This document shows, one piece after another, positions 10,679 through 31,065 of a DNA stretch of 64,000 nucleotides. The notes under the pieces are model-generated. The model was not told the origin of the DNA. It searched no databases and saw only the letters and a program-made list of their open reading frames with translations. A program made the translations under genes and the position numbers. How positions within the stretch are numbered: the first letter of the stretch is position 1; each line of letters begins with the position of its first letter. The DNA is from Polyangium sp. 15x6 (GTDB taxonomy: Bacteria; Myxococcota_A; Polyangia; Polyangiales; Polyangiaceae), in assembly GCF_029960785.1 (NCBI RefSeq), contig NZ_JASBQE010000009.1:62001-126000 (forward strand), given 5' to 3'.

Positions 10679-11056
10679 GAGCCTCTGCGCATCTGCCGAC
10701 CTTGGGCGAGTGTCACGGGTGAGCCTCGGCCTATCTGCCGAGCTTGGCCGAGTGTCACGGGCGAGCCTCAGCGCATCTGCCGAGCTTGGGCGAGTGTCAC
10801 AGGCGAGCCTCGGCCTATCTGTCGACCTTGGGCGAGTGTCACAGGCGAGCCTCGGCCTATCTGTCGACCTTGGGCGAGTGTCACAGGTGAGCCTCGGCCT
10901 ATCTGGCGACCTTGGGCGAGTGTCACAGGTGAGCCTCGGCCTATCTGTCGACCTTGGGCGAGTGTCACAGGCGAGCCTCGGCCTATCTGTCGACCTTGGG
11001 CGAGTGTCACAGGCGAGCCTCGGCCCATCTGCCGATCTTGCCCGAGGGTCACGGCC
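10679..11056. repeat. Nine 42-bp tandem repeats
   Basis: Units start at 10679, 10721, 10763, 10805, 10847, 10889, 10931, 10973 and 11015, exactly 42 bp apart, with a partial unit from 11057. Each begins GAGCCTCGGCC or a close variant and contains CTTGGGCGAGTGTCAC near its end. Inner units differ at only a few bases and outer ones are more diverged. Because 42 is a multiple of three, frames on both strands stay open; the minus strand would read a 14-residue repeat ending in GRGSP. The reading frames have no clear start or ribosome binding site, so I do not call a gene. The array fills most of the 480-bp gap between ppdK and the lipoprotein gene upstream of it on the same strand. There are no unique spacers, so it is not CRISPR. 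Confidence 0.93.
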
Positions 11057-11069
11057 GAGCCTCAGGGGG

Positions 11070-12107
11070 TCAATCGACCGAGCAGCAGAACGTGATGGGG
11101 TCGGCGAGCTCGACCGTGCCGATCGGCTCGACCGTGCCCGCCGGACACGCGCCCGGCTCGGTGACCTCCGGCGTGGTGTACGTATAATAGGAGAAGGACG
11201 CGGTGCATTGATCGTCCGTCACGAGCGCGGCTGTCGCAGTGGTGCACGCGTCGCTGTACCCTTGCACGGACGCGCTGCACTTGGCGCCCGCCGGCGTGCC
11301 GCACGTGCATTCGGTGCAGGCGCGCGTGTCGTTCTTGCCCTCGTAATGGATGGCGCGGTCGGGATACCCGGGCGGGCAGGGGTGCTCGCCTGCGCGGACG
11401 ACACAAATACGAAATGGCGTGACGGGCTCGGGCACGCAGAGCAGGCCATCCTCGCAGACCCCGTCCGTCGACGCGCCGCCGCAGGCGCGAACGGCGCTCT
11501 GGGAGGATGGCTCGGGGAGCGTCGTCGTCGGCGCGGGCGTGCAGGGGCCCATGACCTCGTTGAAGTAGGCGTGGACCGAGTTCTGTTTGGGCGTCGAATC
11601 GAGGCACGTGTCCGGCGGCCCGGACGCCACGTCCAGACCGACAGGAGCGCCGCACGATTGATGGTAGAGCAGGAGGAGGTTTCCGCAATCGACGCTCGGC
11701 GCGCCGCACGAGCAGCCGCACTCCGCCGGCGCGCCGGTGATATCGTCGCGCGCGTCGAGGAGCTGCGTCGGAAAGCTCTCCGGGCACGCCGGGGAAGGGA
11801 CGCCCGTGACGACGGCCGCAGGCGCGGACCATCCGTCCGGCGGCGGGACCGCGCAACGATGCGTCTCCGGGCAGGGGGCGCTGCCGCCGCCGCCGCCCAT
11901 CCCCCCTGCGCCGCCTGCGCCGCCTGCGCCGCCCGTGCCGCTCGTGTAGTCGCGTGCTTTCGGCGTGCAGGCGAGGACCCCGACGAGAAGCGCGGTCGAG
12001 GCGAGCCCGAGCCCCAGCAAATCCGTGCGCCGCCGCGCTCGAACGTCCCATCCGCTACGACTGTCCAGCACGCGGCGACGATACACCTGCGCGCAGCGAC
12101 CGAGCAA
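11070..12107 (-). CDS. Cys-rich lipoprotein with Gly-rich linker
   Basis: The protein has a basic N-terminus, a hydrophobic stretch LLGLGLASTALLVG and the lipobox LVGVLAC, so it should be lipidated and exported. A Gly-rich linker follows (TGGAGGAGGAGGMGGGGG), then a body of about 280 residues with some 25 cysteines, including CTECTCG and CGCSCG, and the C-terminus TFCCSVD. The many Cys residues suggest a disulfide-rich surface protein. No family was recognised. The start is uncertain: TTG 12107 is the longest, and GTG codons a few residues downstream are alternatives. It is transcribed away from the TonB receptor gene, sharing a short divergent region with it. Confidence 0.8.
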   Translation of the reverse strand: MLGRCAQVYRRRVLDSRSGWDVRARRRTDLLGLGLASTALLVGVLACTPKARDYTSGTGGAGGAGGAGGMGGGGGSAPCPETHRCAVPPPDGWSAPAAVVTGVPSPACPESFPTQLLDARDDITGAPAECGCSCGAPSVDCGNLLLLYHQSCGAPVGLDVASGPPDTCLDSTPKQNSVHAYFNEVMGPCTPAPTTTLPEPSSQSAVRACGGASTDGVCEDGLLCVPEPVTPFRICVVRAGEHPCPPGYPDRAIHYEGKNDTRACTECTCGTPAGAKCSASVQGYSDACTTATAALVTDDQCTASFSYYTYTTPEVTEPGACPAGTVEPIGTVELADPITFCCSVD

Positions 12108-12203: not shown

Positions 12204-14621
12204 ATGAAATGCGCAGCCCCCCTATTTGCCCTCACGGCCTCGGCCTCCCTGTTCTTCGGGGGCGTTGCGCGCGCCGACGAACCCACGAAGCCCGCGCCGG
12301 CTCCACCTGCCGCTTCTCCCCCCGCGGCGCCCGTCCTCGTCCCGCCTCGACCGCTCGCCGCGCTCGAGGCCGCTTATCCGACCCAGCCGGGCCTCACGGG
12401 CGAAGCCGACGTCATGCTCGACGTCACCGTCGCGGCGGATGGCAGCGTCAAGGAGGCGCGTGTCGTCTCCGGCGACGCGCCCTTCACGGAGGCCGCGTCC
12501 CGCGCCGCGCCGTCCTGGCGTTTCGAGCCCGCAACGCGGAACGGTAAGCCCATCCCCGCGCGTATTCGTGTCCTCATCCACTTCACGCCCCCCGAGCCGC
12601 CCGCCGAGGAGGAGACCGCTCCCGCGGCTGAAAACGGCGCCGCGCCGAAGGACGGCGCCCCCGGCAAAAAGCCGACCGCGACGCCGAAGCCGGCGGGCCC
12701 CGCGCCGATCGAGGTCCTTGCGCTCGGCGAGCGCCGCGCCGTCGGAACCTCCTCGCTCGGCCGCGCCGAGGTCCGCGTCTTGCCCGGCGCGTTCGGCGAT
12801 CCTTTCCGCGCGATTGAATCCCTCCCCGGCGTCACGCCCATCTTCTCGGGTTTGCCATTCTTTTACATTCGCGGCGCTCCTCCCGGCAACGTCGGTTATT
12901 TCCTCGACAACGTCCGCGTCCCTTATCTGTATCACCTCGCCCTCGGCCCCTCGGTCGTCAATCCGGCGATCGTGGACCGGGTCGACCTCTATCCCGGCGG
13001 CTATCCTGCGCAGTTCGGTCGTTTTGCCGGCGGCATCGTCGCCGGCGAGACGACCAAGCCGAAGGGCGAGCTCCACGGCGAGGCGAACATCCGGGTTTTC
13101 GACGCCGGCGCCATGGTCGAGACCCCGATCGGCGATCGCGCCACCGTCATGGCGGGCGGCCGATTCTCGTACACCGCGGCCGCGCTCTCCCTGCTCGCGC
13201 CCGGAACCACGCTCAATTACTGGGACTATCAGGCCCGCGCGACCTTCGACGTCACGCCCACGGATCGCCTCACCCTCTTCGCGTTCGGCGCCCACGATTA
13301 CCTCGGCGCCGAGCTGGACGGCGTCGAGCAGGGCCTCTTCGACGTCCAGTTCCACCGCATCGACCTCCGCTACGACAAGGACGTGAGCTCGCGGACGCGC
13401 CTCCGCCAGGCCGTCTCGTTCGGCTACGACAGGACGGCCATCGGCGGCCAGGAGGGCATTTTCGCGCGCGATTTCCTCTTCGCGGCCCGGAGCCAGATCC
13501 TCCACCGTCGCAGCGAATCCATGCTCATTCGGGCCGGCGTCGATGCGAACATCGATTATTACGACCTCGTCGCGGGCACGGACGACGACGAGGGCCGCAA
13601 TCTCCAGACGTTCCTCGACCAGTTCTTCCCGCCGCGCCAGGACATCGCGGTCGGGGTTTACGCGGACGCCATCCTCGACGCGGGTCGTGGTGTCGAATTC
13701 ACCCCCGGCGCGCGCGTCGACCTCTGGGGCTCGGGCGGCGTCACCGCGATCAGCGCCGACGTCCGGCTCGCGATGAAGGTCCCCATCGCGCATCGACTCA
13801 AGCTCGTCTCCGCGATGGGCCTCGCCCACCAGCCGCCCGGGTTCGTCTTGCCCGTCCCCGGCCTCACCATCGGCAAGCTCGCCGGCGGCCTCCAGCGCAG
13901 CGTCCAGTCGAGCACCGGCCTCGACGTCAAATTGCCGTTCGGCTTCGAGGCCACGGGCACGTTTTTCCTCAATGGCTTTTTCAACATGGCCGACGCGCTC
14001 GATTCGGTCGGCCGGGCGGCCGGCGGCGGAGGAGGAGGCCCCGGCGGTCCCGGCGGAGGCCCCGGAGGACCCGGAGGCCCCGGAGGCCCAGGCGGGCAGC
14101 CGACCGACGAGGTGGACGACGATGACGACGAGGCGAACGTGATCTCCGATCGATCCCTCGGCACCGCCGTGGGGCTCGAGATCTACATTCGCCGAAAGCT
14201 CACGGAGCGGCTCGGCGGATACATCGCTTATACCCTCTCACGCTCGTCGCGGAGCATCGGCTTCTCCTCGGGCCCGGCGCAATTCGATCGCACCCACGTC
14301 CTGAATGGCGCGATCTCCTGGGAGGCCGGCAAGGGCTGGCGCCTCGGCTCGCGTGTCGTCTTCTACACGGGTTTGCCCCTCGCGGCCGAGACCGCCGCGG
14401 TATGGGGCAAGAGCCGCACCGACCCGTTCTTTCGCATCGACGCGCGCATCGAAAAGCGCTGGAACCTGAAAAAGCGCGGCTGGGTCTCGCTCGTGATCGA
14501 GATGCTCAACGCGACGCTCAGCAAGGAGCAAACCGGCGTCAGTTGCGACCTCACCGAATGCGAGGCCCAGGAAATCGGACCCGTCACCGTACCCAGCATC
14601 GGCGTCGAGGGCGGGCTTTAG
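12204..14621 (+). CDS. TonB C-terminal domain fused to a TonB-dependent outer-membrane receptor
   Basis: This 805-residue protein has a signal peptide of about 24 residues ending GVARA. Residues about 45-135 form a TonB C-terminal-like domain (GEADVMLDVTVAADGSVKEA, then WRFEPATRNGKP). A Pro/Ala/Lys linker follows. The receptor plug begins near residue 175 and contains FYIRGAPPGNVGYFLDNVRV and YPGGYPAQFGR. The rest is a beta-barrel. One loop at about 608-650 is a Gly/Pro run followed by an acidic patch (DEVDDDDDE), a possible surface or cation-binding loop. Such TonB/receptor fusions are known in myxobacteria. The ligand is unknown. The start is ATG 12204, directly behind the promoter. Confidence 0.88.
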   Translation: MKCAAPLFALTASASLFFGGVARADEPTKPAPAPPAASPPAAPVLVPPRPLAALEAAYPTQPGLTGEADVMLDVTVAADGSVKEARVVSGDAPFTEAASRAAPSWRFEPATRNGKPIPARIRVLIHFTPPEPPAEEETAPAAENGAAPKDGAPGKKPTATPKPAGPAPIEVLALGERRAVGTSSLGRAEVRVLPGAFGDPFRAIESLPGVTPIFSGLPFFYIRGAPPGNVGYFLDNVRVPYLYHLALGPSVVNPAIVDRVDLYPGGYPAQFGRFAGGIVAGETTKPKGELHGEANIRVFDAGAMVETPIGDRATVMAGGRFSYTAAALSLLAPGTTLNYWDYQARATFDVTPTDRLTLFAFGAHDYLGAELDGVEQGLFDVQFHRIDLRYDKDVSSRTRLRQAVSFGYDRTAIGGQEGIFARDFLFAARSQILHRRSESMLIRAGVDANIDYYDLVAGTDDDEGRNLQTFLDQFFPPRQDIAVGVYADAILDAGRGVEFTPGARVDLWGSGGVTAISADVRLAMKVPIAHRLKLVSAMGLAHQPPGFVLPVPGLTIGKLAGGLQRSVQSSTGLDVKLPFGFEATGTFFLNGFFNMADALDSVGRAAGGGGGGPGGPGGGPGGPGGPGGPGGQPTDEVDDDDDEANVISDRSLGTAVGLEIYIRRKLTERLGGYIAYTLSRSSRSIGFSSGPAQFDRTHVLNGAISWEAGKGWRLGSRVVFYTGLPLAAETAAVWGKSRTDPFFRIDARIEKRWNLKKRGWVSLVIEMLNATLSKEQTGVSCDLTECEAQEIGPVTVPSIGVEGGL

Positions 14622-14630
14622 CAGCTCGTA

Positions 14631-15605
14631 TCAGGGCGCGCGCCAGAGCTCGAAGCCATTCTCCATCACGGCATCCATATCCACGAACAGCCCGACGAGG
14701 TCGTCGAACGAGCTCGTGGCGAGCCCCATCTCCTCGATCATCGGGTGGCTGTCGGCCACCTTCAGGTTCAACGCGAAACGACCATCGAGCACGCCGGCCC
14801 GGCGGAAACGCCTGATCGTCGCGTTCGCCTCGACGCCCGACTGATAACAGGCCTTCTCGGGCCGCTCGGCGTCACGGAATTGCTTCAGCAGCGCGAACGT
14901 GAGCCCGGAGGACATCGATCGCGAAAGGTCGAGGCGCACGGAGGACTCGGGCCCCGCGGTCTCCGGCCCACCGAAGAGCCGGTCCGACAAACCCGCTCCG
15001 GCCGCCAACGGATCCTCCCAGACCTCGTCGAAGAGCGCCCGGCTCGTCCCGGGGATCTTCGTGATCTGGAAGAGCTGCTCCGTGCGCCCCAGGGTCCGTG
15101 GACCGAATCGGTCGATCACGACCGGCGAGACGCGGAACACGCTCGCGGAAGCTGCGTCGTACGGGACCTCCAGATGCGCGAGCTCGCTCGGGATCCCCCA
15201 TACCTCGCGCCCCGTCACGACGACATGTCCCTCGTCGAAGAACGAGTAGTACGGAAAAACCACCGGGCGGTTCGTCAGGGGGCTCGGCCCCGTGGGGCGC
15301 GTGGACAGGGCGGGGATCCAGACGCCGGCCGCGGCGACCGAGAAGAACCCTCGCTGGGCGTCGGGCGGGCTCTCGGCGCGGGTGACGCCGAATCGAGCGA
15401 GGGTGAAGACGACCCGCGACGAATACACCCGATAATCGCAGACCCCGAAGGACGGGCGATTCAGGAACCGATCGCAGACCACCTGCAGGCGGCGGACGTC
15501 CGCCTCCACCGGGAACAGGTAGAGCGTCGCGTTCGAGAGCGCGAGCGGCTGCGCGAGCGCCTGGTTGTCCGGGCGCTCGACGTATTTTCCGACGCCGGCG
15601 TTCAC
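14631..15605 (-). CDS. ADC-like protein, type I, lacking the catalytic lysine pair (ADC-A)
   Basis: This 324-residue protein belongs to the acetoacetate decarboxylase (ADC) superfamily. It is closely related to the gene at 23650-24627; both open with a (K/R)YVER-DNQA motif. Authentic ADC carries the Schiff-base Lys and its helper Lys in a GRE-P-KK motif. Here the site reads GREVWGIPSEL, with Ser140 and Glu141 at those two places, so Schiff-base decarboxylation is not expected. It starts at GTG 15605, overlapping the TGA of the flavoenzyme/ADC fusion gene upstream (GTGA), so the two should be translationally coupled. It may be a binding, cyclase or dehydratase-type member, or a partner subunit. 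That is inference. Confidence 0.82.
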   Translation of the reverse strand: MNAGVGKYVERPDNQALAQPLALSNATLYLFPVEADVRRLQVVCDRFLNRPSFGVCDYRVYSSRVVFTLARFGVTRAESPPDAQRGFFSVAAAGVWIPALSTRPTGPSPLTNRPVVFPYYSFFDEGHVVVTGREVWGIPSELAHLEVPYDAASASVFRVSPVVIDRFGPRTLGRTEQLFQITKIPGTSRALFDEVWEDPLAAGAGLSDRLFGGPETAGPESSVRLDLSRSMSSGLTFALLKQFRDAERPEKACYQSGVEANATIRRFRRAGVLDGRFALNLKVADSHPMIEEMGLATSSFDDLVGLFVDMDAVMENGFELWRAP

Positions 15606-18600
15606 AAGAGGCTCCGGAGCGCGAGCTTGTTCTTTCCCTGCCCGAGCTCGACGAGGCGCGACGCGAGGCCCGAGGGCGCCGGCAGCGAGAGCTTCCAGCG
15701 CGTGCGAATCTGGAAGCCGAACGAATGGCTCGTCGTGGCGTCGAACCCGGTGATGTCGTACTTGCCGCGCATCGGGCCCGCGAGATACTCGTCATCGAGG
15801 GTCACGCGGCCGTCGAGGGGGCGCACCTCGCACCGCCCGAGCCCCCAGTCGAGGCAGGCCGAAACGAAAGGCCCGAGGCCACGCGCCGAGCGCGTGAGGA
15901 TCGGCTGCGAGAGCATCGACGAGAGGGCCTTCACGTTGCGAGCGATCGCCTCCGTCTTGCAGGCGGGGTTCGACCCGGCATTGCGGATCGGCAGCTTGCA
16001 GACGGGGCCGCGGTCGAGCCAATCTTCGAGGCTGCGGAACGCCTCGCGGCCTTGCATCGACGCGGTCAGCGCGCAGAAGCGGCGCAGCGGCGAGCGGACC
16101 TGCCAGAGCCGCTCGGGCGTGGAGGCGCCGCGTTTGTCCCTGATTTCGACGCTGGCGAGCTCGGTATCGAAGCCCCAGAAGAGGAGTCCGCCGCCCGCCA
16201 TGAGCGGATCGGTCACATAGAAGCGCGGCACGTACGTGAAGGGGCCGCGCCCGAGGGAAAAACCCGTCATGCGGACGAAGGGAATCGCGTTCATCACCTC
16301 CAGGTAGTTTCGATGGAGCAGCGAGCGCGGGAACGAGAAGCGCGCGCCTTCTCGCGCGCCGAGCGTGATCACGAGCGGGTGGAAGCCGGGCGGCGTGATC
16401 TCCTGCTCCTCGAGCTCGAGCCCGTTCGGCAGCATGCGCCGCACGTCGTTCTCGGGGAGGAAGATGACTGCGACGGCGCCGTCGTACTCGCCGAGGACCT
16501 CGACGGGGCCCAGCGCGGGCGTCGTGCCGCGCACGTCGTAATCGCCGACGATGTTCTCCGGGAAGCCGCAGATCGCGCGTGACACCTGCATGCCGGACAT
16601 CGCCGCGGACTCGACGCAGCCCGTGTTGAGCCCGTTTTTCGTCCAGTCGCCGGCGAGGAACAGGTTCTCGAAGCCGGACCTGTCCGAATGCAGGCGATAA
16701 TGGGTCGAGCCCTTCGGCGACATGACGTAGCGCTCCGAGGGATCGATGTTCGCGCGCCAGTACTGCGCGTAGAACCGCTTCTTGCCGTCGCGGTGCTGGG
16801 GATCGACCAGGAAAAACCAGTTGAGCTCGTCCTCGTCGTGGGTCGTGGTCGCGAGCGGCCAGAGCACGCCGGGGTTTTTCGTGAGCCATTCGACGGAGAT
16901 GCACCGGACCGCCTCGTGCATCCTCCGCGGGAAATCGTGATCCCAGGGCGGGGGCAGCCCGTCCCGCTGCAGCGCGGCCGCGGCGATGCCCGTCGGGGTG
17001 GCCGTGGACGAAGGAGGCGCGAACAGGCTCACCGAGGGGTCGGTCGCGCCGACGAACGGGGCCTGCGGCGGAGGCAGGTGCGTGGTCGAGACGGGGATCG
17101 AGGCGACCGGGAAGGGGCGCAAGAGGTCCGCGTCGAGCAGCGGGCCGGTGAAATACGCGAGGCTGCCGGGGTAATCGCGATTCGGGTCTTCCGGCGTCCC
17201 CACGGGCCAGTTCTCGCGATTGATGAGGTGCGTCATGTCGCAGTACGTGTTCTCGGGCTGCGCATAAGCCGCGACGCACGACGAAGCCCCGTTCCAGCCG
17301 AGATTCTGGAGGCTCGGGCGCATCCAGAGCTGCATGCACTGGGTCTGCACGGTGGGGATGTGCTCCACCATGTCCTTCCATTGCCGGCTGTGCTCGATGA
17401 GCTCCTGGCAGATGAACGGCAGCGCGCCGAGCGCGATGCCGAGGACGACGATGTCGAAATCCTCGCCCTTCTTCAGGACGCGCTTCTCGACGGGCTTCCA
17501 CGAGGACCAGAAGGATTCGAGGTTGTAATTGAGCTTCGTCCAGCCCGCCCGCAGCGCGTCGCCGTCCACGATTTGCTCGTAGAGCGGCTCGCTCGGCCAG
17601 GAGAGCAGGCCCTTCGTGGAGAAGAGCGGATAATATTCGCGAAGGTGGGCCGGCCGCACGGATTCGGGTTGCTCCGACGGCGGGGCCTCGTCCGTCTCCA
17701 AGACCAGCGGCGCTTGCTGGATCGGGGCGTCGTCCTCGTGGCGCGGCGGCTCCTGCGGCCCCGTGGGCGGCGGCTTGATCCACACCTGCCGGTCGACGCG
17801 GATTCGCTCGATCTCCGTCTTCGACGCGTCGAGCTCGAGCTTCGTCACCCGATGGAAGAATTCGAAGCGCACGCCGCGGCTCTTCAGGACGATGTAGAGC
17901 GGCGCGAAGACGACGTCGCCCATGCCGGCCTGCATCTTCCAGAAGATCGCCCCCCGATACTCGAGGAGCATCCGCAGCATGGCGCGCACCATCGCGCCCG
18001 CGGCCATGTTCGGCCTTCGCGTGTCGCCCTTCTCGTAAGCGAACACGAAATCGTACGTCCCGCGGATGATGCCCGATCGGAGCGTGAGCTCGTTCGCCCC
18101 ATTGCGGCGCAGCCATTCGACGAGATCATACTTGTCGATGACATCCCAGCCGTGCTCGAGGACTCCATCGAAGACCACGCCGCGCAGGCCGGCCGCGATG
18201 AGATCGATCAGGATCCACAGGCGCCGGAGGACCGTGTTTTGCTCGACGATGTGCTCGATCTCGTCCCACAACCATTCCCGGAGATCGGCGAGGATCTCGC
18301 AGATGGTCGACCCGTGCTCGTGCGAGGCCCTGGCGAGCTCCCGCGCGCGGAGCAGCTGCAGGTGCGCGGTCGTGGGACCGACGACGAGCCGCGTCCGGTG
18401 CCGCTGGCTCGAAGCGTTCGAGCGGCGCGCCACGAGGCCGAGCGCGCTGCCCACGACCCCCACCGTCATGGTGGCGAGGTCCGCCAGGAAGCTCTCCTTG
18501 CGCGCTCCCTCCGCGGAGGCCAGGCCGACCGGAGGCGAGGTATTTTCGGGGGGAGGGGTTTGCGACGCGGCGCTGTCCGGGTTTGCCCCCGGGACGGGCG

Positions 18601-19147
18601 CGCCCTGGGGCGGGCCGTAGGGCGATGTTTCGAACGCGTGGAGCGCGAGGCCGATCATCTCCCCGGCCACGTCCCAGATCGAAAAAAACTCCTTGCCTTG
18701 TCCGGGCGTGTGGTGGTTTTCCCGGAAATGCTCGATCCAGAAGACCCAGTCCGGATCGACCTCGAGACCGCGGATCCCCGCGTCTTCCCCCTCGATGCTC
18801 TCCATCACACCGACGTACGAGAACTTCTTGAAGGCCTCGTCCCAGCTCGAGAGCGGCATGTTCGGATTGCGGCCGAGCTCCTCGTAGCAGCGCCGCATCA
18901 TGTTGAAGGCGTTCTCGTAGAAGCCGAGCCAAACATGCAGCCCGTGCTCCTCGATGCGATCGGAGGCCTTGCGATTGCGCCCGCTCGCGCCCTTGCCGCC
19001 GAGGCGAAACCCCTGCTGATAGACGGTCACTTCGTACTCGTCTTTCCAGCCGGGGACACTCGTGAGCTCGAATGCCGCCGTCATCGCGCCCACGCCGCTG
19101 CCGAGGACCGCGATTTTTTTCTTCCTGGTCGGTGCTGATCCGGACAT
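15602..19147 (-). CDS. FAD-dependent desaturase/amine-oxidase-like enzyme fused to an ADC-like domain
   Basis: The 1181-residue protein starts at ATG 19147, with GGAG about 7 nt upstream. Residues 10-860 are a flavoenzyme of the phytoene desaturase / hydroxysqualene dehydroxylase / amine oxidase type. It has the FAD loop VLGSGVGAMTAAFEL, the conserved EHGLHVWLGFYENAF and the C-terminal FAD motif NLFLAGDWTKNGLNTG. A low-complexity insert lies near residues 180-220. Residues about 880-1165 are an ADC-like domain matching the proteins at 19373 and 24870 (DVRRMLPNGLELEE, then RTRWKLSLP). Its active-site equivalent reads FWGFDTEL, with Thr995 and Glu996 instead of Lys-Lys. It probably acts on an isoprenoid. 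The flavin chemistry is inferred. Confidence 0.85.
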   Translation of the reverse strand: MSGSAPTRKKKIAVLGSGVGAMTAAFELTSVPGWKDEYEVTVYQQGFRLGGKGASGRNRKASDRIEEHGLHVWLGFYENAFNMMRRCYEELGRNPNMPLSSWDEAFKKFSYVGVMESIEGEDAGIRGLEVDPDWVFWIEHFRENHHTPGQGKEFFSIWDVAGEMIGLALHAFETSPYGPPQGAPVPGANPDSAASQTPPPENTSPPVGLASAEGARKESFLADLATMTVGVVGSALGLVARRSNASSQRHRTRLVVGPTTAHLQLLRARELARASHEHGSTICEILADLREWLWDEIEHIVEQNTVLRRLWILIDLIAAGLRGVVFDGVLEHGWDVIDKYDLVEWLRRNGANELTLRSGIIRGTYDFVFAYEKGDTRRPNMAAGAMVRAMLRMLLEYRGAIFWKMQAGMGDVVFAPLYIVLKSRGVRFEFFHRVTKLELDASKTEIERIRVDRQVWIKPPPTGPQEPPRHEDDAPIQQAPLVLETDEAPPSEQPESVRPAHLREYYPLFSTKGLLSWPSEPLYEQIVDGDALRAGWTKLNYNLESFWSSWKPVEKRVLKKGEDFDIVVLGIALGALPFICQELIEHSRQWKDMVEHIPTVQTQCMQLWMRPSLQNLGWNGASSCVAAYAQPENTYCDMTHLINRENWPVGTPEDPNRDYPGSLAYFTGPLLDADLLRPFPVASIPVSTTHLPPPQAPFVGATDPSVSLFAPPSSTATPTGIAAAALQRDGLPPPWDHDFPRRMHEAVRCISVEWLTKNPGVLWPLATTTHDEDELNWFFLVDPQHRDGKKRFYAQYWRANIDPSERYVMSPKGSTHYRLHSDRSGFENLFLAGDWTKNGLNTGCVESAAMSGMQVSRAICGFPENIVGDYDVRGTTPALGPVEVLGEYDGAVAVIFLPENDVRRMLPNGLELEEQEITPPGFHPLVITLGAREGARFSFPRSLLHRNYLEVMNAIPFVRMTGFSLGRGPFTYVPRFYVTDPLMAGGGLLFWGFDTELASVEIRDKRGASTPERLWQVRSPLRRFCALTASMQGREAFRSLEDWLDRGPVCKLPIRNAGSNPACKTEAIARNVKALSSMLSQPILTRSARGLGPFVSACLDWGLGRCEVRPLDGRVTLDDEYLAGPMRGKYDITGFDATTSHSFGFQIRTRWKLSLPAPSGLASRLVELGQGKNKLALRSLL

Positions 19148-19241
19148 CACTCGCTCCGCCTCCGCGAGAGCCCCATCCTCGGTCGCGCGTGTCGCGCGCC
19201 CTCGGTGAGGGCAGTCAGGAGCCATCGGCCATGGTAAACGC

Positions 19242-19261
19242 CTTGCGAGAAGCCACGCAAG
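19242..19261. promoter_or_regulatory. Inverted repeat in a divergent intergenic region (candidate operator)
   Basis: CTTGCG and CGCAAG flank an 8-nt spacer within the 225-bp region between the divergent flavoenzyme fusion and ADC-B genes. The geometry suits a dimeric regulator, but a 6-bp palindrome in G+C-rich DNA can arise by chance and no regulator gene is adjacent. Confidence 0.25.
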
Positions 19262-19372
19262 CCCCGAGCAACGTTTGGCCGAGCGCAGAGCCTGCGTGCA
19301 ATTGAAGTAGACTTCGGGGTGCGTCTCGGTGTACCATGACGAGTTCCGTACGAGGTCCTTTGCGGAGGATGG

Positions 19373-20248
19373 ATGCTCGAGAGCCCGTACCGGTCCATGA
19401 ACGTCGTCGGAAAGCTGTCCAGTTCCTATGTGACGCTCGTCATGCCTCGTGACGAGGTGGCGTGGATGCTCCCGGAGGGTTTGGCGCTCGGACCCCAGGA
19501 CCACACGCCTCCGGGGACGCACCCCGTCGTGCTCTCCTTCAGCCACCGCTACGACGTGCACGTCACGCTGCCTCGCCTGCTCTTGCCCGGGACGACGTAC
19601 AAGGAGCAGGCCATCGGCGTGCCGTTCGTCCATGCCAAGCGCGATCTCTGCGGTGGGCGCGCGCGTGGCCCTTTCCTCTACCTGCCGCGCCTCTTCGCGA
19701 GCCAGATCCTGCCCGTGATCGGCGGATGGCTCTTCTGGGGTTTGGCGAAGCAACTCGGCCGCATTCGGGAGATGTCGTTCGGCCCGGACAAGGGGGCGAA
19801 CGGCGCGGGCGCGGAGGCACCACGTTCCGAGAAAAACCCCCACGAGACGAGGCACGAGACCGGGACGTACCGCGTTTTCCCCCCCGGGGACGACGCCGAG
19901 TCGATCGTGTCGCTGAGCTACGAGGTGACCGGCGATTTCCAGCCCCTCACACAGGTGCCGAACCACGAGGTCATCCTCGACGTCCTGCGCCAGCCGCTGA
20001 TCTGCTGCCAGCCGGTCGCGCGCGGGCCGCTCTTCTCGTGCGCCGATCACGAAAATGACTGGGAGCGCGCCCAGGCGCGGCCTCTTCATACGACGACGCG
20101 CATCGAGGACGCGTTCGTCCCGGGGCTCGTCGTCGGGACCTATCGCTCGCGCGGGCTCGACATGTCGCCGCTCGGCTCGTTCCAGCTTCGCGCCCCTTTC
20201 AAGCTCAGCCTGCCCCATTGCTGCGGGCGCGGGCACAGCCTCGCTTGA
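19373..20248 (+). CDS. ADC-like protein, type II, with one retained lysine (ADC-B)
   Basis: This 291-residue protein aligns without gaps to ADC-D (24870-25706) over its first 130 residues. Shared marks are the DEVAWMLPEGL motif near residue 30, AKRDLCGGRARGPF near 88, and the C-terminal FQLRAPFKLSLPHCCG, which is also present in the flavoenzyme fusion. At the ADC active-site position it reads FWGLAKQL, keeping Lys126 but with Gln127 instead of the pKa-lowering second Lys. It starts at ATG 19373 with GGAGG at 19364-19368. The polyprenyl synthase fusion gene follows 34 bp downstream on the same strand, so they probably form one transcript. It could be a decarboxylase, an aldolase or a dehydratase. 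Confidence 0.83.
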   Translation: MLESPYRSMNVVGKLSSSYVTLVMPRDEVAWMLPEGLALGPQDHTPPGTHPVVLSFSHRYDVHVTLPRLLLPGTTYKEQAIGVPFVHAKRDLCGGRARGPFLYLPRLFASQILPVIGGWLFWGLAKQLGRIREMSFGPDKGANGAGAEAPRSEKNPHETRHETGTYRVFPPGDDAESIVSLSYEVTGDFQPLTQVPNHEVILDVLRQPLICCQPVARGPLFSCADHENDWERAQARPLHTTTRIEDAFVPGLVVGTYRSRGLDMSPLGSFQLRAPFKLSLPHCCGRGHSLA

Positions 20249-20282
20249 TCGACGGAGAACCCTCGGCACGAGACACGACGAG

Positions 20283-22559
20283 ATGACATCGACCCCGGCA
20301 GCCATGAAGCTCGGAGCCGCGCGCGGCCCGGATCCCGCCCGGACCCACACCGAAAACGAGAAAGCCCCCGAGCGGGCGAGCGTGGACTTCACGCAGCGCG
20401 ACGCTCCCGAGGGCGCGTGGTTCGAACGCTGGTCCGCCGCCGTCCACGTCGAGACGAAGGATCAGCGCGCCCTCACGGTGTGGGCCGCCTTCGATCGGAG
20501 GCTCCACGCCGGCGCGGACGGCGAGCCGGTGCTGACCCACGGCCTCTCCTTCGCGCTCAGCGACGAGAGCACGAAGCGATACCGCCCGAGGCTCGAGCTC
20601 GACGCCGCGCGTCGAAGCGCCCTGCGCGACGCCATCACGCACGGCACGGCGCCCATGGATCGGCACCTCGCCCGCGCCGCGCTGGAGATGCTCGACGCCG
20701 AGACGCTCCCGGCCCCCGCGCACGGGATGCACGCCGAGCCCACCGTGGACCCGCGGGGCCTCGAGCTGCGTTACGGCGGCAGCCTGCTCTCGCGAAAGCC
20801 GGACGGGAGCTATCGGCTCGTGCTCGGGCAGCTCCGCGGCGCGCGCGGCTGCGACCTGCGCTTGCGTGCGCTCAAGCCCGCGCTGCTCCTCCACGACGCG
20901 CGGGAGAGCTCCGCCGGCGAGGAGGGGGCCTCGCTCCACTACGCGCTGCCGAGCTGCTTCGTCGACGGCACCCTCTTCCTCGACGGCGAGGAGCTCCGGG
21001 TCTCGGGGTTCGGCCACTACGATCGCCTGATCGGGCCCCCTTCCGGCGCATCCGTGATCGATGGATCGAAAGCGCCGACCGGGGTGCAGCGGGCGTTCCT
21101 CCACCTCGACGACGGCAGCTCGGTTGTCGTGCAGGTCCTCGCGCGAGAAGGTCAGGACACGAAGCGCGCGCGGGCCGTCGTCATGGACGTCCGCGGGCGT
21201 TCGCTCGCCGAGGCGCACGCCACGCTCGCGCCGTTCGGCACGTGGCGGAGCCCGCGCTCGTACCAGGAGTACCCCGTCTCCTTCACGCTCCGGATCCCCG
21301 GCGGAGGGCTCGAGCTCGTGCTCGAAGCGGCCATGCCCGCGCAGGAGTTCCATGGCCTCGTGGGCAGCGTCTCCGCGTGGCGGGGACGCGCGCGTGTCAA
21401 AGGAACGCGCTGGGGGCGGCCCATCGAGGGGATCGGCTGGGTCGAGCAGACGTCTCCGCCTGCCCATGTCGATCTCGGCGGCTTCCTCTCCGCCGCGCAT
21501 CGGAGCGTGCGACGCGAGATCGCCGCGCTCGTCTCGCGCGCCCCTTCCCAGCCGGCGCTCGCGGAGCTCCTCGGCTGCGTGGGCCACGAGGAGAGGCTCG
21601 AGGGCGTCGAGCCCGAGCTCATCGGCCGTTCGCTCACGGGGCCGCTCCTCGACGTCCTCGATCGCGGCGGCAAGGGCTGGCGCTCGTTCGTCACGCTCGC
21701 CTGCATCGACGCGGTCGGCGGCGACGCCACGGGATTCTCGCCTTGGCTCGCGATCCCCGAGCTCATCCACACCGGCTCGCTCCTCGTCGACGACGTGCAG
21801 GACGGTTCGACGATCCGCCGCGGCGGCCCGGCGTGTCACCTCCTCCACGGCGAGCCGACGGCGATCAACGCGGGCACGGCGGCGTACTTCCTGGCCGAGC
21901 TCTTCCTCTCGCGCTCGGCGCTCCCGCCCGAGCGCGCCGAGCGCGTCATGCACCTCTACTTCGACGCGATGCGCGCGGGGCACGGCGGGCAGGCCCTCGA
22001 CATCGCCGGCCTCGAGGACCTCTTGCCGGCCGCCGTGGCGTCGGGCGACACCGAGGAGCTCGTGCGTCGCGTCACGGCCATCAACCGGCTCAAGACGGCC
22101 GTGCCCGCGGGCGCGCTCGCGCGCATGGGGGCGATCGCCGGAGGCGGCACCGAGGCGCAGGTCGAGGGGCTCGGCGCGTACGTCGAGTCCATCGGGCTCG
22201 CGTTCCAGATCATCGACGACGTCCTCAACGTGCGCGGCTTCCAGGGGAACCTGAAGCAGCGGGGCGAGGACATTCGTATCGGCAAGGTCACGTTGCCCAT
22301 CGTGCGAGCGCTCGGTCTCCTCGACCGAGACGAGCGCGAGCACCTCGCGCGCACGCTCCGGGACAAACCCGACGATGACGCCGTGGTCGAGGACCTGATC
22401 GCGCGCATCGAGCGCACGGGCGCGCTCGACGCGTGCGTGCGCGAGGCTCGGGACCTCGTCGAGACGGCTTGGACGCGGCTCTCACGCCTCGTTGCGCCCT
22501 CGGTCGCGACGGCGCGGCTGCGTGCGTTCGGATGGTACGTGCTCGATCGGAGCTACTGA
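20283..22559 (+). CDS. CrtC-like lipocalin domain fused to polyprenyl diphosphate synthase
   Basis: This 758-residue fusion has two parts. Residues about 35-395 resemble the CrtC/AttH lipocalin-like family of carotenoid hydratases, with SGFGHYDRLIG at 241-251, PVSFTLRIPGGGLELVLEA (331-349) and GIGWVEQT (383-390). Residues about 405-758 are a trans-polyprenyl diphosphate synthase. Its first aspartate-rich motif is DDVQD (503-507) followed by GSTIRRG, and its second is DDVLN (645-649), with Asn at the last position. Product chain length cannot be read. Making a prenyl chain and then hydrating or modifying it in one polypeptide is the natural reading. The start ATG 20283 has only a weak ribosome site, and ATG 20304 (MKLGAARG) is an alternative. 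Its 3' end overlaps the convergent quinone-oxidoreductase gene by 7 bp. Confidence 0.85.
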   Translation: MTSTPAAMKLGAARGPDPARTHTENEKAPERASVDFTQRDAPEGAWFERWSAAVHVETKDQRALTVWAAFDRRLHAGADGEPVLTHGLSFALSDESTKRYRPRLELDAARRSALRDAITHGTAPMDRHLARAALEMLDAETLPAPAHGMHAEPTVDPRGLELRYGGSLLSRKPDGSYRLVLGQLRGARGCDLRLRALKPALLLHDARESSAGEEGASLHYALPSCFVDGTLFLDGEELRVSGFGHYDRLIGPPSGASVIDGSKAPTGVQRAFLHLDDGSSVVVQVLAREGQDTKRARAVVMDVRGRSLAEAHATLAPFGTWRSPRSYQEYPVSFTLRIPGGGLELVLEAAMPAQEFHGLVGSVSAWRGRARVKGTRWGRPIEGIGWVEQTSPPAHVDLGGFLSAAHRSVRREIAALVSRAPSQPALAELLGCVGHEERLEGVEPELIGRSLTGPLLDVLDRGGKGWRSFVTLACIDAVGGDATGFSPWLAIPELIHTGSLLVDDVQDGSTIRRGGPACHLLHGEPTAINAGTAAYFLAELFLSRSALPPERAERVMHLYFDAMRAGHGGQALDIAGLEDLLPAAVASGDTEELVRRVTAINRLKTAVPAGALARMGAIAGGGTEAQVEGLGAYVESIGLAFQIIDDVLNVRGFQGNLKQRGEDIRIGKVTLPIVRALGLLDRDEREHLARTLRDKPDDDAVVEDLIARIERTGALDACVREARDLVETAWTRLSRLVAPSVATARLRAFGWYVLDRSY

Positions 22560-23602
22560 GGACGAATCGAGGACGGGCCCGCGCCGATACGGACGACGAC
22601 CTTCCCGACGTTTTTCCCGGAGTGCAGGTGCTCGACCGCGTCGATGCACGACGCGAGCCCTTCGAATGGCGTCGGATCTACGTGGACCGAGAGGGCGCCG
22701 GCGTTCGAAAGCTCGAGCAGCTCCGCGAGATGCCCGGCGATCCGATCGGCGAAGTGGAACAGGAAGAAGCCACGAATCTGCGCGGATTTCCAGAGCAGCT
22801 CGTGGTAGACGCGCGGCGCCGTGGTGGAGGCGGGCTCGGGGCGCGTGTACTCGGAGATGAACCCGCACACGAGCAGCCGGCCGCGGATGGCCAGGTTCGC
22901 GAGCGACGCGTCGAACAGGGCGCCGCCTACCGATTCGAATGCGATGTCGACGCCCCGCGGGTACTCCCGAGCGAGGACCTCGCCGAGATCCTCGGTCCGA
23001 TGGTTCACGACACGGTCGCAGCCGAGCTTTTCGAGGAACTCGCGTTTCTCATCGGTGCCGCAGACACCGATGACGTGATTGCCCGCGCGCTTGGCGAGCT
23101 GCACCGCGAATTGCCCGACACCGCCGGCCGCGGCCGTCACCACGACCGTCTCGCCGGAGCCCATGTGCCCGACCTCTTTCAGGCCGATGGACGCGGTCAG
23201 GCCGTTCACGAGGATGGCGAGCATCTCGGGCGTGGCGCGGGGAATGGGGATACACGCCGATACCGGGGCGAGCAGGTACTCGCGAAACCCGCCGCCGATG
23301 ACCAGGGCCATCACGAGATCGCCCACCTTGAGGCTCGTCACGTCGGGCCCCACCGCGACGACCTCGCCGGCCGACTCTGCGCCGAGATCGATATCGGACG
23401 ACCTCGTGCTGGCCTCCTTGAAGGCATCGTAGGCGGACGCGGAGATGTTCGGGTCCGAAGCGTTCACGCCGGCGACCACGTTGCGCACGAGGACCTGCCC
23501 CGGCCCCGGCGAGACGAGATCGGCGTCCACGATCTTCGCGACGGCGCGGAAATCACGGCTCGGGTGAACTGCGATGAGCTTCTTGTAGGTTTTCGGTAGC
23601 AT
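22553..23602 (-). CDS. Zinc-free MDR / NADPH:quinone oxidoreductase-type enzyme
   Basis: The 349-residue protein has the medium-chain dehydrogenase fold. The N-terminal catalytic half has GPGQVLVRNVVAGVNASD and GAESAGEVVAVGPDV. The nucleotide loop AAAGGVGQFAVQLAKRAG follows near residue 150. The structural zinc cysteines of alcohol dehydrogenases are absent, which suits the quinone oxidoreductase / enoyl reductase branch (ZADH2/prostaglandin reductase-like). It would reduce an activated C=C or a quinone with NADPH. It starts at ATG 23602, 47 bp behind the stop of ADC-C on the same strand, so the two look co-transcribed. In context it may saturate an enone made within the isoprenoid pathway. 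Confidence 0.88.
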   Translation of the reverse strand: MLPKTYKKLIAVHPSRDFRAVAKIVDADLVSPGPGQVLVRNVVAGVNASDPNISASAYDAFKEASTRSSDIDLGAESAGEVVAVGPDVTSLKVGDLVMALVIGGGFREYLLAPVSACIPIPRATPEMLAILVNGLTASIGLKEVGHMGSGETVVVTAAAGGVGQFAVQLAKRAGNHVIGVCGTDEKREFLEKLGCDRVVNHRTEDLGEVLAREYPRGVDIAFESVGGALFDASLANLAIRGRLLVCGFISEYTRPEPASTTAPRVYHELLWKSAQIRGFFLFHFADRIAGHLAELLELSNAGALSVHVDPTPFEGLASCIDAVEHLHSGKNVGKVVVRIGAGPSSIRPQ

Positions 23603-23649
23603 GTCGACCGTCCGTGCCTTCCTGGGGCGCACGCGCGCGCGGGCTCGAC

Positions 23650-24627
23650 TCAGAACGCCTTCCAGCGCGTGACCCCGGTGTCGAGCGTGAAATCCATGTC
23701 CACGAAGAAGCCGCGGACCGCGTCGAACGTGCGCGGCGAAAGCCCCAGCCCGGAGACCAGCGGGTGGCTGTCGGCGGTCTTCACGTCGAGCGTGTAGCGT
23801 CCATCCAGCAAGCCGGCCCAGCGAAAGCAGTCGATCTGCGTGCCAGCCTCGATGCCGGCCTGATAACAGGCGCGGCTGGGATCCGAAACATCCCGGAATT
23901 GCTTGAGGAATGCGAACGTGGGCCCCGTGCGCAGGAGGTCGACCATCGACAGGGCGAGCCCGAGGCCGGGGACAGTGATCGTGGGGCCGCCGAAGACGAG
24001 GTCGACGATCGCCTCGAGCGCGGCTTTGCCCTCGGTAAAACCCTGCGCCACGACCCCGCGCGAGGTGCCTCCGACCCGGTTCACCTGCACGAGGTACTCC
24101 TTCTGCGCGAGCACGTCGGGCCCGAAGCGATCGAAGAGCGTGGGCCGGATCTGGAAGAGATCGGCCACGGAGGGCCTCGTGGGGACCGTGATCTCCGCGG
24201 TCTCCTTGGGCCATCCCTGGTCCTCGCGCCCGCTCACGACGGCGTGGCTCGAGGTCGCGAACATGTAATAGGGGAAGAGCACGAGACGCGTGGCGACCGG
24301 GATCGGACCTGTCTTATCGATCGACACGAGCGGGATCCAGATCCCCGCCTCGGTGTAGTTGAAGCTGCCCTGGTCGCGGAAGACCGGGACCGTCGAGGAC
24401 ACGGTGCCCGTGTGGGTGAAGACGAGGAATACCTGAGGAAAAAACGCGCGGTAGCTGGCGAGGCCCTTCGACGGGGCGTTCAAGAACTTGTCGGCGAGCG
24501 CTTGTTGCCTCTGCGTGTCGCTCTCGAGCGGGAAAAAATAGGCCGTTACGTTCCGGAGCGTCGCGGGCGTCGGCATCGCTTGGTTGTCCGCTCGCTCGAC
24601 GTATCTCGGCAAATTGGCTCTGCTCAT
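23650..24627 (-). CDS. ADC-like protein, type I, with one retained lysine (ADC-C)
   Basis: This 325-residue paralogue of ADC-A shares its whole length and order of motifs: RYVERADNQA at 8-17, DKFLNAPSKGLASYR at 46-60, and a matching C-terminus around LKQFRDVSDPSRACYQAG. At the ADC active site it reads GREDQGWPKET, so Lys141 is kept and Glu142 replaces the second Lys. It could form a Schiff base, unlike ADC-A. I chose ATG 24627 because the conserved N-terminus begins there; the frame is open further upstream without homology. It is divergent from ADC-D, with 242 bp between the starts, and it leads the quinone-oxidoreductase gene. Confidence 0.83.
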   Translation of the reverse strand: MSRANLPRYVERADNQAMPTPATLRNVTAYFFPLESDTQRQQALADKFLNAPSKGLASYRAFFPQVFLVFTHTGTVSSTVPVFRDQGSFNYTEAGIWIPLVSIDKTGPIPVATRLVLFPYYMFATSSHAVVSGREDQGWPKETAEITVPTRPSVADLFQIRPTLFDRFGPDVLAQKEYLVQVNRVGGTSRGVVAQGFTEGKAALEAIVDLVFGGPTITVPGLGLALSMVDLLRTGPTFAFLKQFRDVSDPSRACYQAGIEAGTQIDCFRWAGLLDGRYTLDVKTADSHPLVSGLGLSPRTFDAVRGFFVDMDFTLDTGVTRWKAF

Positions 24628-24768
24628 GCCTTGTCTCGGCCGCGGGGTTCGGGGGCGAGGCCCGTTCGTCCGGGCGGAGCGCCCCCGCGTCTTCGGAGCC
24701 TGTAACGCGGGGACGAGGCTACCCGAGCTTCGGGGGCGGAAGCAAGTGTCGCGAGGCGATTCTGGCTC

Positions 24769-24803
24769 TTGACACCTGTCCCAATCGAGCCCGACCATGG
24801 GAC
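24769..24803 (+). promoter_or_regulatory. Candidate promoter with overlapping inverted repeat upstream of ADC-D
   Basis: A perfect -35 hexamer TTGACA lies at 24769-24774, but no good -10 hexamer follows at the usual spacing. GTCCCA (24778-24783) and TGGGAC (24798-24803) form an inverted repeat with a 14-nt spacer that would overlap the polymerase site. This suggests a regulated promoter for ADC-D and possibly the kinase behind it. The evidence is the sequence pattern only. Confidence 0.3.
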
Positions 24804-24869
24804 GATGTTCTTACCCGTACAGGTCCGGCTGCTCCGCCTCGCCGTACCACGATGCGTGGGAGGTCGTCG

Positions 24870-25706
24870 ATGTCGTTGAACCCCTACCAGGCCATGAAGC
24901 TCGTCGGTCAATGGTCGGTCTACGGCGTCACGATCGCGCTCCCTCGCGAGGACGTCCGGTGGATGCTCCCCGACGGGCTCGAGCTCGGCGATCAGGATTT
25001 GACGCACCGGGATACACATCCGGTGTCGCTGTACTTCGGTCACGTGCGCGACGCGCACATGACCTTTCCGCGGTTTTTCCCCCCCGAGATGACGTATTTC
25101 GAGCAGGTGGTCGGCGTGCCGTACGTGTACGCGAAGCGCCCGCTCTGTGGAGGTCGGGTCCGGGGGCCTTTCTTTTACATGCCGCGGCTTTTCCTGACGA
25201 ACCTGCTCGCGACCATCGGCGGCATCCTTTTCTGGGGTTTTCCCAAGAAGCTGGTCCGCGTCCTCGAGGGCACGAACCCCGCGAAGACGGACGGGTCGTA
25301 TGCCGTTTGTCCTCTCTATGGAGGAGGCGACGAGATCCTCGGGCTGCAGTGGGGCGCCACGGGGTCGTTCGAGCCGGCAATCGCCGTGCCCTCCTTCCAG
25401 CGACAGCTCGAGATCATGACCCAGCCGCTCGTGTCGCGGCAACCCCTCTCCGTGGGGCCCCTCCTGGCGTGCTCGGACTTCGACAAACTCTGGCGAGAGG
25501 CCGAGATCCGGCCCCTGCGCACGAAGACGATCATCCAGGAGGCATTCGTGCCGGGGCTCGCGCCCGGGAGGTATTCGTCGGAGGGCATCGATCAATCGCC
25601 GACGGGCGCGTTCCAGCTCCGGGCGCCCTGGGAGCTCTCCCTCCCTTATTGCTGTGGAAAAGGGCGCGCCCCGGGAGCCGCGCCAAACGTCCCCTCCATC
25701 TGGTGA
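24870..25706 (+). CDS. ADC-like protein, type II, with intact Lys-Lys active site (ADC-D)
   Basis: The 278-residue protein is the only one of the five ADC-like domains here that keeps both lysines of authentic acetoacetate decarboxylase: Lys126 and Lys127 in FWGFPKKL. It has REDVRWMLPDGLELGD at 26-41, AKRPLCGGRVRGPFFYMPRL at 88-107 and the C-terminal FQLRAPWELSLPYCCGKG. Schiff-base chemistry on a beta-keto acid or related carbonyl is therefore plausible. I chose ATG 24870 (MSLNPYQAM) because GGGAGG ends 6 nt upstream; ATG 24852 is possible but poorly placed. The hybrid kinase gene starts 19 bp after its stop, which suggests one transcript. Confidence 0.85.
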   Translation: MSLNPYQAMKLVGQWSVYGVTIALPREDVRWMLPDGLELGDQDLTHRDTHPVSLYFGHVRDAHMTFPRFFPPEMTYFEQVVGVPYVYAKRPLCGGRVRGPFFYMPRLFLTNLLATIGGILFWGFPKKLVRVLEGTNPAKTDGSYAVCPLYGGGDEILGLQWGATGSFEPAIAVPSFQRQLEIMTQPLVSRQPLSVGPLLACSDFDKLWREAEIRPLRTKTIIQEAFVPGLAPGRYSSEGIDQSPTGAFQLRAPWELSLPYCCGKGRAPGAAPNVPSIW

Positions 25707-25725
25707 GCGCCGAGGAGCCATCGCG

Positions 25726-31056
<5,331 letters not shown>

Positions 31057-31065
31057 GCCCTTCGG

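Follow-up and report, generated by a model that had tools for sequence, protein, structure and literature searches.

Here we describe a 16.4-kb island in the genome of Polyangium sp. 15x6, located in a stretch of 64,000 nucleotides that was analysed as a whole (hereafter, the window). The island carries genes for a flavin adenine dinucleotide (FAD)-dependent oxidoreductase, for domains related to acetoacetate decarboxylase (ADC), for a polyprenyl diphosphate synthase (PPS) and for a large sensor kinase. Judged from comparative sequence analysis, the FAD oxidoreductase and a lysine-bearing ADC-type enzyme form a core that is kept together across phyla in many arrangements, often with a large sensor adjoining. 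In Polyangium, this core has its own PPS, which is fused to a CrtC-like domain, as well as duplicated ADC domains, and it resides in an island that includes the sensor kinase gene. The main interest of the region lies in this sensor-coupled FAD-ADC core, and not in the unusual set of seven genes for which a first-pass annotation had singled it out. We consider the chances about even (a probability of roughly 0.5) that the island is a self-contained system, in which an isoprenoid-modifying pathway has a sensor of its own, perhaps as a signal synthase and its receptor. Sequence comparison underlies our description of the island and its content, of the association of the FAD enzyme with ADC enzymes and sensors, of two PPS families, and of the pattern of the catalytic lysine.

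The genes of the island

Gene calls were based on translation and on Pfam and NCBIfam profile searches. The island (14622 to 31065; 16,444 bp), delimited by the contiguity of its flanks in the genomes G001, G003, G004 and G005, consists of seven enzyme genes and a kinase gene:

14631 to 15605, minus strand: ADC1, ADC-like, Schiff-base lysine replaced by Ser; 4-bp overlap with the stop of the flavoenzyme gene
15602 to 19147, minus strand: FAD-dependent oxidoreductase (amine-oxidase/phytoene-desaturase superfamily) fused to ADC2, lysine replaced by Thr (Pfam, family alignment A1)
19373 to 20248, plus strand: ADC3, lysine kept (LAKQ; Pfam, alignment)
20304 to 22559, plus strand: CrtC/Lipocalin_9 two-lipocalin domain fused to PPS, with DDVQD and DDVLN (Pfam, motifs)
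22553 to 23602, minus strand: MDR-family enone/quinone reductase, an optional member, absent from the Polyangium sp. 6x1 cluster (Pfam/NCBIfam)
23650 to 24576, minus strand: ADC4, lysine kept (WPKE; Pfam, alignment)
24870 to 25706, plus strand: ADC5, lysine kept (FPKK; Pfam, alignment)
25726 to 31056, plus strand: sensor of 1776 aa, Ser/Thr kinase, AAA_16, GAF and histidine kinase, starting 19 bp after ADC5 (Pfam)

The start of the flavoenzyme gene (~15602-19147) was set by likeness to locus L048 and not by the 1596-aa open reading frame (ORF). Translation and profiles confirmed that 14631-25706 holds seven genes with five ADC domains, a flavoenzyme, a CrtC-PPS fusion and an MDR reductase, as had been annotated; the eighth gene, encoding the kinase (25726-31056), had been missed, and the unit that is absent from relatives extends over 14622-31065. 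The statement that phytoene and squalene synthases are lacking is true of the cluster, in which no match to SQS_PSY was found; the genome has two SQS_PSY matches on other contigs, and four other PPS matches outside the cluster.

The FAD enzyme is associated with ADC enzymes and sensors

A scan with the FAD alignment A1 gave at least 550 relatives, the best 80 of which were kept. We annotated 104 loci by domain, namely 79 of these 80 (L071 is the same place as L048 and was left out), 24 additional ones, and the window. The 24 came from a set of 59 genomes that belong to the window's order and include the own genome; 17 of the 59 had matches at 1e-20. Three ADC loci of the own genome that lack a FAD gene (L017-L019) were excluded from the count. 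The ADC domain is fused to the FAD enzyme in 47 of the 104 loci and encoded within 1.5 kb of it in another 37, which together make 84. A large sensor is present within 3 kb in 73 loci; 58 loci have both partners and five have neither. The distribution is as follows:

Pseudomonadota: 50 named loci, 46 with ADC, 36 with sensor
Cyanobacteriota: 12 named loci, 12 with ADC, 12 with sensor
Myxococcota: 8 named loci, 7 with ADC, 5 with sensor
Chloroflexota: 3 named loci, 2 with ADC, 3 with sensor
Acidobacteriota: 3 named loci, none with ADC, 2 with sensor
Verrucomicrobiota: 2 named loci, 1 with ADC, 1 with sensor
Planctomycetota: 1 named locus, 1 with ADC, 1 with sensor
Remaining loci and the window together: 25 loci, 15 with ADC, 13 with sensor

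The FAD enzyme is thus found with a sensor in seven phyla and with an ADC in six. When the set was thinned to one locus per genus or ortholog group (74 loci), an ADC within 1.5 kb was retained in 58 and a sensor within 3 kb in 55. The sensors beside the ADC-FAD pair belong to three classes: 27 of these 55 are Ser/Thr kinases with AAA_16, 11 are cyclases with AAA_16, and 15 contain 7TMR-DISM, a class of hybrid histidine kinases; two are of another kind. Their density falls steeply with distance. In the thinned set, 40 sensors lie at most 1 kb from the block (2.80 per 10 kb), seven at 1-2 kb and nine at 2-3 kb; at 3-10 kb, there are six in 708 kb (0.08 per 10 kb), the bins holding 2, 2, 2 and 0 (0.00-0.12 per 10 kb). 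It should be noted that the window type is scored as a miss in this set, its representative L048 having no sensor, and that the window kinase is located 5.2 kb from the FAD block, beyond CrtC-PPS, MDR, ADC4 and ADC5. On a tree of 106 FAD rows (one FastTree tree, 24 of whose 103 inner branches are weak), a minimum of 14 changes is needed for the ADC/FAD arrangement and of nine for the sensor type, which was labelled by locus.

Two other arrangements were observed among these loci. A metagenome-assembled genome of the Acidobacteriaceae has three tandem FAD genes of the family (L105:9881-16400), with no ADC detected. In 11 gammaproteobacterial loci (L097, L117, L130, L135, L136, L138, L140-L142, L145 and L148), a TonB-dependent receptor gene is positioned between the FAD gene and that of a 7TMR-DISM hybrid histidine kinase.

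ADC domains and the distribution of the catalytic lysine

With the Pfam ADC profile (cut-off 29.8 bits), ADC5 scores above the threshold (31.5 bits) and ADC4 (28.8) and ADC3 (25.9) below it, and no match was obtained for ADC1 and ADC2. The latter two are connected to the others by phmmer: a search with ADC1 finds the L048 ortholog of ADC4 at 6e-81, and one with ADC2 finds the orthologs of ADC3 and ADC5 at 1e-28 and 9e-23, respectively, as well as ADC3 of its own genome at 1.8e-22. With a profile built from 41 ADC domains of the family, solved acetoacetate decarboxylases are recovered (5upb, 2.8e-5; 3bgt, 6.3e-5). A separate ADC profile seeded with the five window domains served only to find others, as its E-values on those five prove nothing. 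On these similarities, the five domains of the window are classified as remote members of the ADC family.

The Schiff-base lysine, which we take to be that of the FPKK motif of 3bgt, is kept in 95 of 105 ADC rows aligned to the 3bgt segment; one further row is a fragment without that column. It is replaced in the other nine, every one of which comes from a PPS-bearing locus: four are the ADC1 and ADC2 domains of the window and L048, and five are second ADC domains, in the proteins of L050, L051, L053, L055 and L060. Each locus with a lysine-less domain also has lysine-bearing ones; in the window, these are three of the five, ADC3, ADC4 and ADC5, the lysine being Ser in ADC1 and Thr in ADC2. 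This pattern suggests a division of labour after duplication of the ADC domain.

The CrtC-PPS fusion and the case for prenyl chemistry

The PPS part of the fusion is clearly recognised by the Pfam profile polyprenyl_synt (151.9 bits, cut-off 27), and both Asp-rich motifs, DDVQD and DDVLN, are intact. Its best score with an NCBIfam chain-length equivalog is far below the cut-off (147.6 versus 450). Small residues before the first Asp-rich motif go with products of C20 or longer; the window PPS has such residues, which suggests that its product is in that range. The lipocalin part scores above the cut-off with Lipocalin_9 (52.5 versus 26.2 bits) and below it with the CrtC N-terminal domain (21.2 versus 22.5).

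The CrtC part is matched in 51 of the 377 genomes of Myxococcota, counting the own genome, and in all 20 loci inspected (L211-L230, Myxococcota) it is fused to PPS in a protein of ~750 aa. Because the fusion is constant in these 20 loci and no FAD gene is among their displayed neighbours, we regard it, on this comparative basis, as an independent module that was recruited to the island; one of the 20 has an ADC gene six genes away. Nine neighbours of the fusions were scanned in Pfam, four of which matched, none to carotenoid or isoprenoid metabolism, and six scanned in NCBIfam gave no match. A protein of ~206 aa is encoded in the neighbourhood of 11 of the 20 loci; the two that were scanned had no Pfam match.

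A PPS was detected in nine of the 104 FAD loci, all from the window's order. Pairwise identity of the window PPS is 81% with the L048 enzyme and 42-57% with the corresponding part of the 20 Myxococcota fusions, versus 28-32% with the seven separate PPS of other FAD-ADC loci, and in the PPS tree, fused and separate enzymes are split by a branch with a support of 100. Thus, by sequence, two distinct PPS families that are ~30% identical occur in FAD-ADC loci, whatever the FAD tree says, and their presence supports prenyl chemistry there.

In some loci with a separate PPS (L050:10553-11386, and also L051, L053 and L055), a protein of 277-329 aa is encoded between FAD and PPS. The one of L050 has no Pfam match; by eye, its start is amphipathic, its middle rich in Pro and its end Ig-like, as in granule-associated (phasin-like) proteins.

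The combination of a CrtC-like fold, an enzyme of the desaturase superfamily and a PPS could be that of a variant carotenoid cluster, with a CrtC hydratase, a CrtI-type desaturase and CrtE. We consider this very improbable. The FAD enzyme does exceed the Pfam cut-offs for Amino_oxidase (29.5 versus 19.8 bits) and NAD_binding_8 (30.6 versus 21.9), but it is far below all of the NCBIfam cut-offs listed for it, including the equivalog ones for HpnE (47.5 versus 283.05 bits) and ZDS (35 versus 622.15), the CrtC domain does not reach its own, and phytoene synthase is matched only on other contigs; moreover, we know of no carotenoid pathway with ADC enzymes. These scores, together with the two PPS families, support the first-pass view of an isoprenoid locus distinct from the standard carotenoid and terpene clusters.

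Location of the island and its absence from relatives

In G001, G003, G004 and G005, the counterpart of the window sequence that runs to 14615-14621 and the one that resumes at 31059-31066 lie within a few bases of each other; the site is located between the stop codons of two convergent genes. The island is missing from this site in all five same-genus genomes searched. In the fifth of these, G002, taken to be Polyangium sp. 6x1, the site is filled by 525 bp of other DNA (L166:10597-11120), and it may therefore be a hot spot for insertion; the 525-bp insert contains a 111-aa ORF (10781-11116) that resembles, by eye, a helix-turn-helix regulator. As all five relatives are without the island at the site, it is likelier that 14622-31065 was gained by insertion than that it was lost in the relatives. 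Within 80 bases around the two ends, no common word of more than 8 bases was found.

Polyangium sp. 6x1 has the enzyme cassette at another place and between different flanks; order and orientation are unchanged, nucleotide identity is 80-85% over the main blocks, and the MDR gene is missing. No clean empty site was found for this cassette, a match being obtained in G005 for just one flanking gene. At another FAD-PPS-ADC locus, Polyangium sp. 6x1 has a kinase that belongs to the FAD-locus group. The co-occurrence that had been proposed as a check on the annotated locus is thus observed: the set is syntenic in a second species, except for MDR, and FAD and ADC go together in six phyla. That the genes are chance neighbours with no joint function might be argued from the weakness of the single family matches; this explanation, to which we give next to no credence, is contradicted by the conservation data, which include the synteny between different flanks at the above identity, fusions in both orders, and an association in six to seven phyla.

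The TonB-like gene to the left of the island (12204-14621) was considered as a member of the unit and rejected, as matches at 86-94% identity occur in each of the five genus genomes and its position is outside the island. It bears on another explanation, in which the ADC and FAD enzymes degrade imported hydrophobic keto acids or polyisoprenoids. Import would fit the TonB-dependent receptors adjoining the FAD gene in the 11 gammaproteobacterial loci, and an MDR reductase would not be out of place in degradation; however, a prenyl diphosphate synthase builds chains, two families of this enzyme have been brought in, and the TonB-like gene beside the island is simply a gene of the genus. Degradation is therefore improbable in our view.

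Farther to the left, window positions 820-5535 encode a 1571-aa protein that appears by eye to combine a trypsin-like protease, an NTPase and beta-propeller repeats, and that was met as an AAA_16 match in the own-genome search (C275:66450-66815).

The sensor kinase

For the C-terminal, histidine-kinase part of the window kinase (29500-31056), the closest hit in each of G002-G005 is a kinase that adjoins a FAD-PPS-ADC locus (150 candidates were scored of 211-287 per genome). G001 is without a FAD match, and its closest hit is another gene. A tree was made of 32 AAA_16 kinases from FAD loci, including any in the locus and not just the nearest, and 19 own-genome paralogs (20 stretches were fetched). 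On this tree, one change separates the FAD-locus kinases from the paralogs, a number as low as which was reached in none of 500 shuffles. The paralogs form two clades (supports of 99 and 98), neither of which includes the window kinase, and a group with a support of 100 unites 19 FAD-locus kinases from Cyanobacteriota, Chloroflexota, Acidobacteriota and Myxococcota. A role in defence was also considered and set aside; among the best 25 of 32 PADLOC matches, those for the sensor were to kinase domains, and the four other proteins given had none.

A proposed pathway and its alternatives

We infer a prenyl substrate, an order of reactions and the sensing of the product as follows. The PPS would make a prenyl diphosphate of C20 or longer, which the lipocalin domain would bind, hydrate or cyclise and the flavoenzyme oxidise or isomerise. 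The lysine of ADC3, ADC4 and ADC5 would form a Schiff base with a ketone or keto acid, leading to decarboxylation, aldol or cyclisation chemistry, while ADC1 and ADC2, having no lysine, may have been turned into scaffold or substrate-binding parts. As MppR shows, lysine-dependent cyclisation and aldol-type chemistry also occur in the ADC superfamily (PMC10367076, PMC7820114). The MDR enzyme would optionally reduce an enone, and the adjacent kinase would sense the product or its precursor pool and thereby control the pathway or a wider response. The earlier proposal of one closed seven-gene pathway can be kept in part: MDR is dispensable, CrtC-PPS usually occurs without FAD-ADC, and a recurring third partner, the sensor, lies outside the seven genes.

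Several observations weigh against a self-contained pathway with its own sensor. Twenty of the 104 FAD loci have no ADC within 1.5 kb, although in seven of these it is found at 1.8-2.1 kb (six behind a PPS gene, the seventh in L126), and 31 have no sensor within 3 kb. As PPS is present in only nine FAD loci, prenyl chemistry outside the window's order would be an extrapolation. The approximately unbiased (AU) test is compatible with one clade of PPS-bearing FAD enzymes (p=0.50; seven of the nine PPS rows, 38-row tree), and our supposition of two independent PPS gains on the FAD tree was not upheld by the same value; the argument from two families rests on the PPS sequences. In the case of the kinase, the branch separating FAD-locus kinases from paralogs has a support of 4, the tree does not settle the place of the window kinase, and the paralogs are all from one genome. 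The own genome is rich in kinase-AAA_16 proteins (150 AAA_16 candidates scored of 456), and adjacency in the window is therefore weak evidence on its own; the six-gene cassette of Polyangium sp. 6x1 has no adjoining sensor. The G+C content of the island (0.677) does not differ from that of its flanks (0.679 and 0.688) in a way that would indicate foreign origin, and loss in the relatives, though less likely, would be an alternative to insertion. Finally, the AlphaFold models of the FAD-ADC2 fusion and of CrtC-PPS were too poor to be used (mean predicted local distance difference test scores, pLDDT, of 43.7 and 37.3).

The strongest competitor, which we hold to be a serious possibility but somewhat less probable than a pathway with a dedicated sensor, is that the enzymes make a protective isoprenoid lipid of membranes or granules, and that the sensors respond to external conditions, and not to the product, when they turn the genes on. 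Three kinds of sensor beside one enzyme pair would fit different inputs with a single output, and the protein between FAD and PPS in the L050-type loci looks granule-associated by eye. An ADC-family protein, all0736, which is not shown to belong to the same family, is named among the lipid-droplet proteins of Anabaena (PMC12923008). By itself, a protective lipid does not account for a single kinase group accompanying the enzymes in four phyla.

The dedicated-sensor reading can be extended beyond Polyangium to a widespread form of bacterial signalling. The ADC-FAD pair would make an isoprenoid-derived messenger, apocarotenoid- or ketone-like, that is read by the neighbouring sensor, three sensor classes having been plugged in repeatedly, and the Polyangium island would be an amplified, mobile form with its own prenyl supply. 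This extension is more speculative, and we think it somewhat less likely than the protective lipid. If it were true, a nameless enzyme pair that is seen in cyanobacteria, Pseudoalteromonas, relatives of Duganella/Janthinobacterium, Rhodobacteraceae, Chloroflexota, Planctomycetota and myxobacteria would be tied to signal transduction. The island would then hint at the substrate class (prenyl) and offer a compact unit transferable to a laboratory host, and ADC-fold chemistry would be joined to isoprenoid metabolism, a link that did not turn up in the literature searched.

Comparison with known systems

The enzymes come from known superfamilies, but the association of FAD enzyme, ADC and sensor is undescribed within the literature searched. 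Full-text searches combining ADC with the other parts gave no description of this set and no described cluster that matches it, in line with the first-pass claim that no characterised pathway has it.

The FAD enzyme shares the FAD amine-oxidase superfamily with phytoene and zeta-carotene desaturases and HpnE, which its N- and C-terminus match; it differs from them by a signature of its own, EEHGLHxWxGFYENAF, and by its ADC partner. The window fusion resembles CrtC-like two-lipocalin proteins and trans polyprenyl diphosphate synthases through Lipocalin_9, CrtC (sub-threshold) and polyprenyl_synt, but joins the two in one chain. The family resembles the ADC superfamily (ADC, MppR) in its profile near the active site and in having the Schiff-base lysine, found in ADC3-5 of the window and most family rows; on the other hand, the ADCs of FAD loci are fused to or located beside a flavoenzyme, two of the five window domains are without the catalytic lysine, and the second lysine of the FPKK motif is mostly missing in the displayed ADC rows.

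As to the sensor, HstK-type (cbSTKIII) Ser/Thr-His kinases of cyanobacteria likewise have, as described in PMC2176072, a Ser/Thr kinase at one end, a His kinase at the other and GAF between. The likeness is one of domain layout, whereas the FAD-locus kinases adjoin an ADC-FAD pair and lie apart from the 19 own-genome paralogs.

At the level of the whole system, RpfF/RpfC and LqsA/LqsS are signal-synthase/sensor cassettes. The enzymes of the island are unrelated to theirs and its signal is putative, but it shares with these cassettes the arrangement of enzyme genes that adjoin a large sensor kinase.

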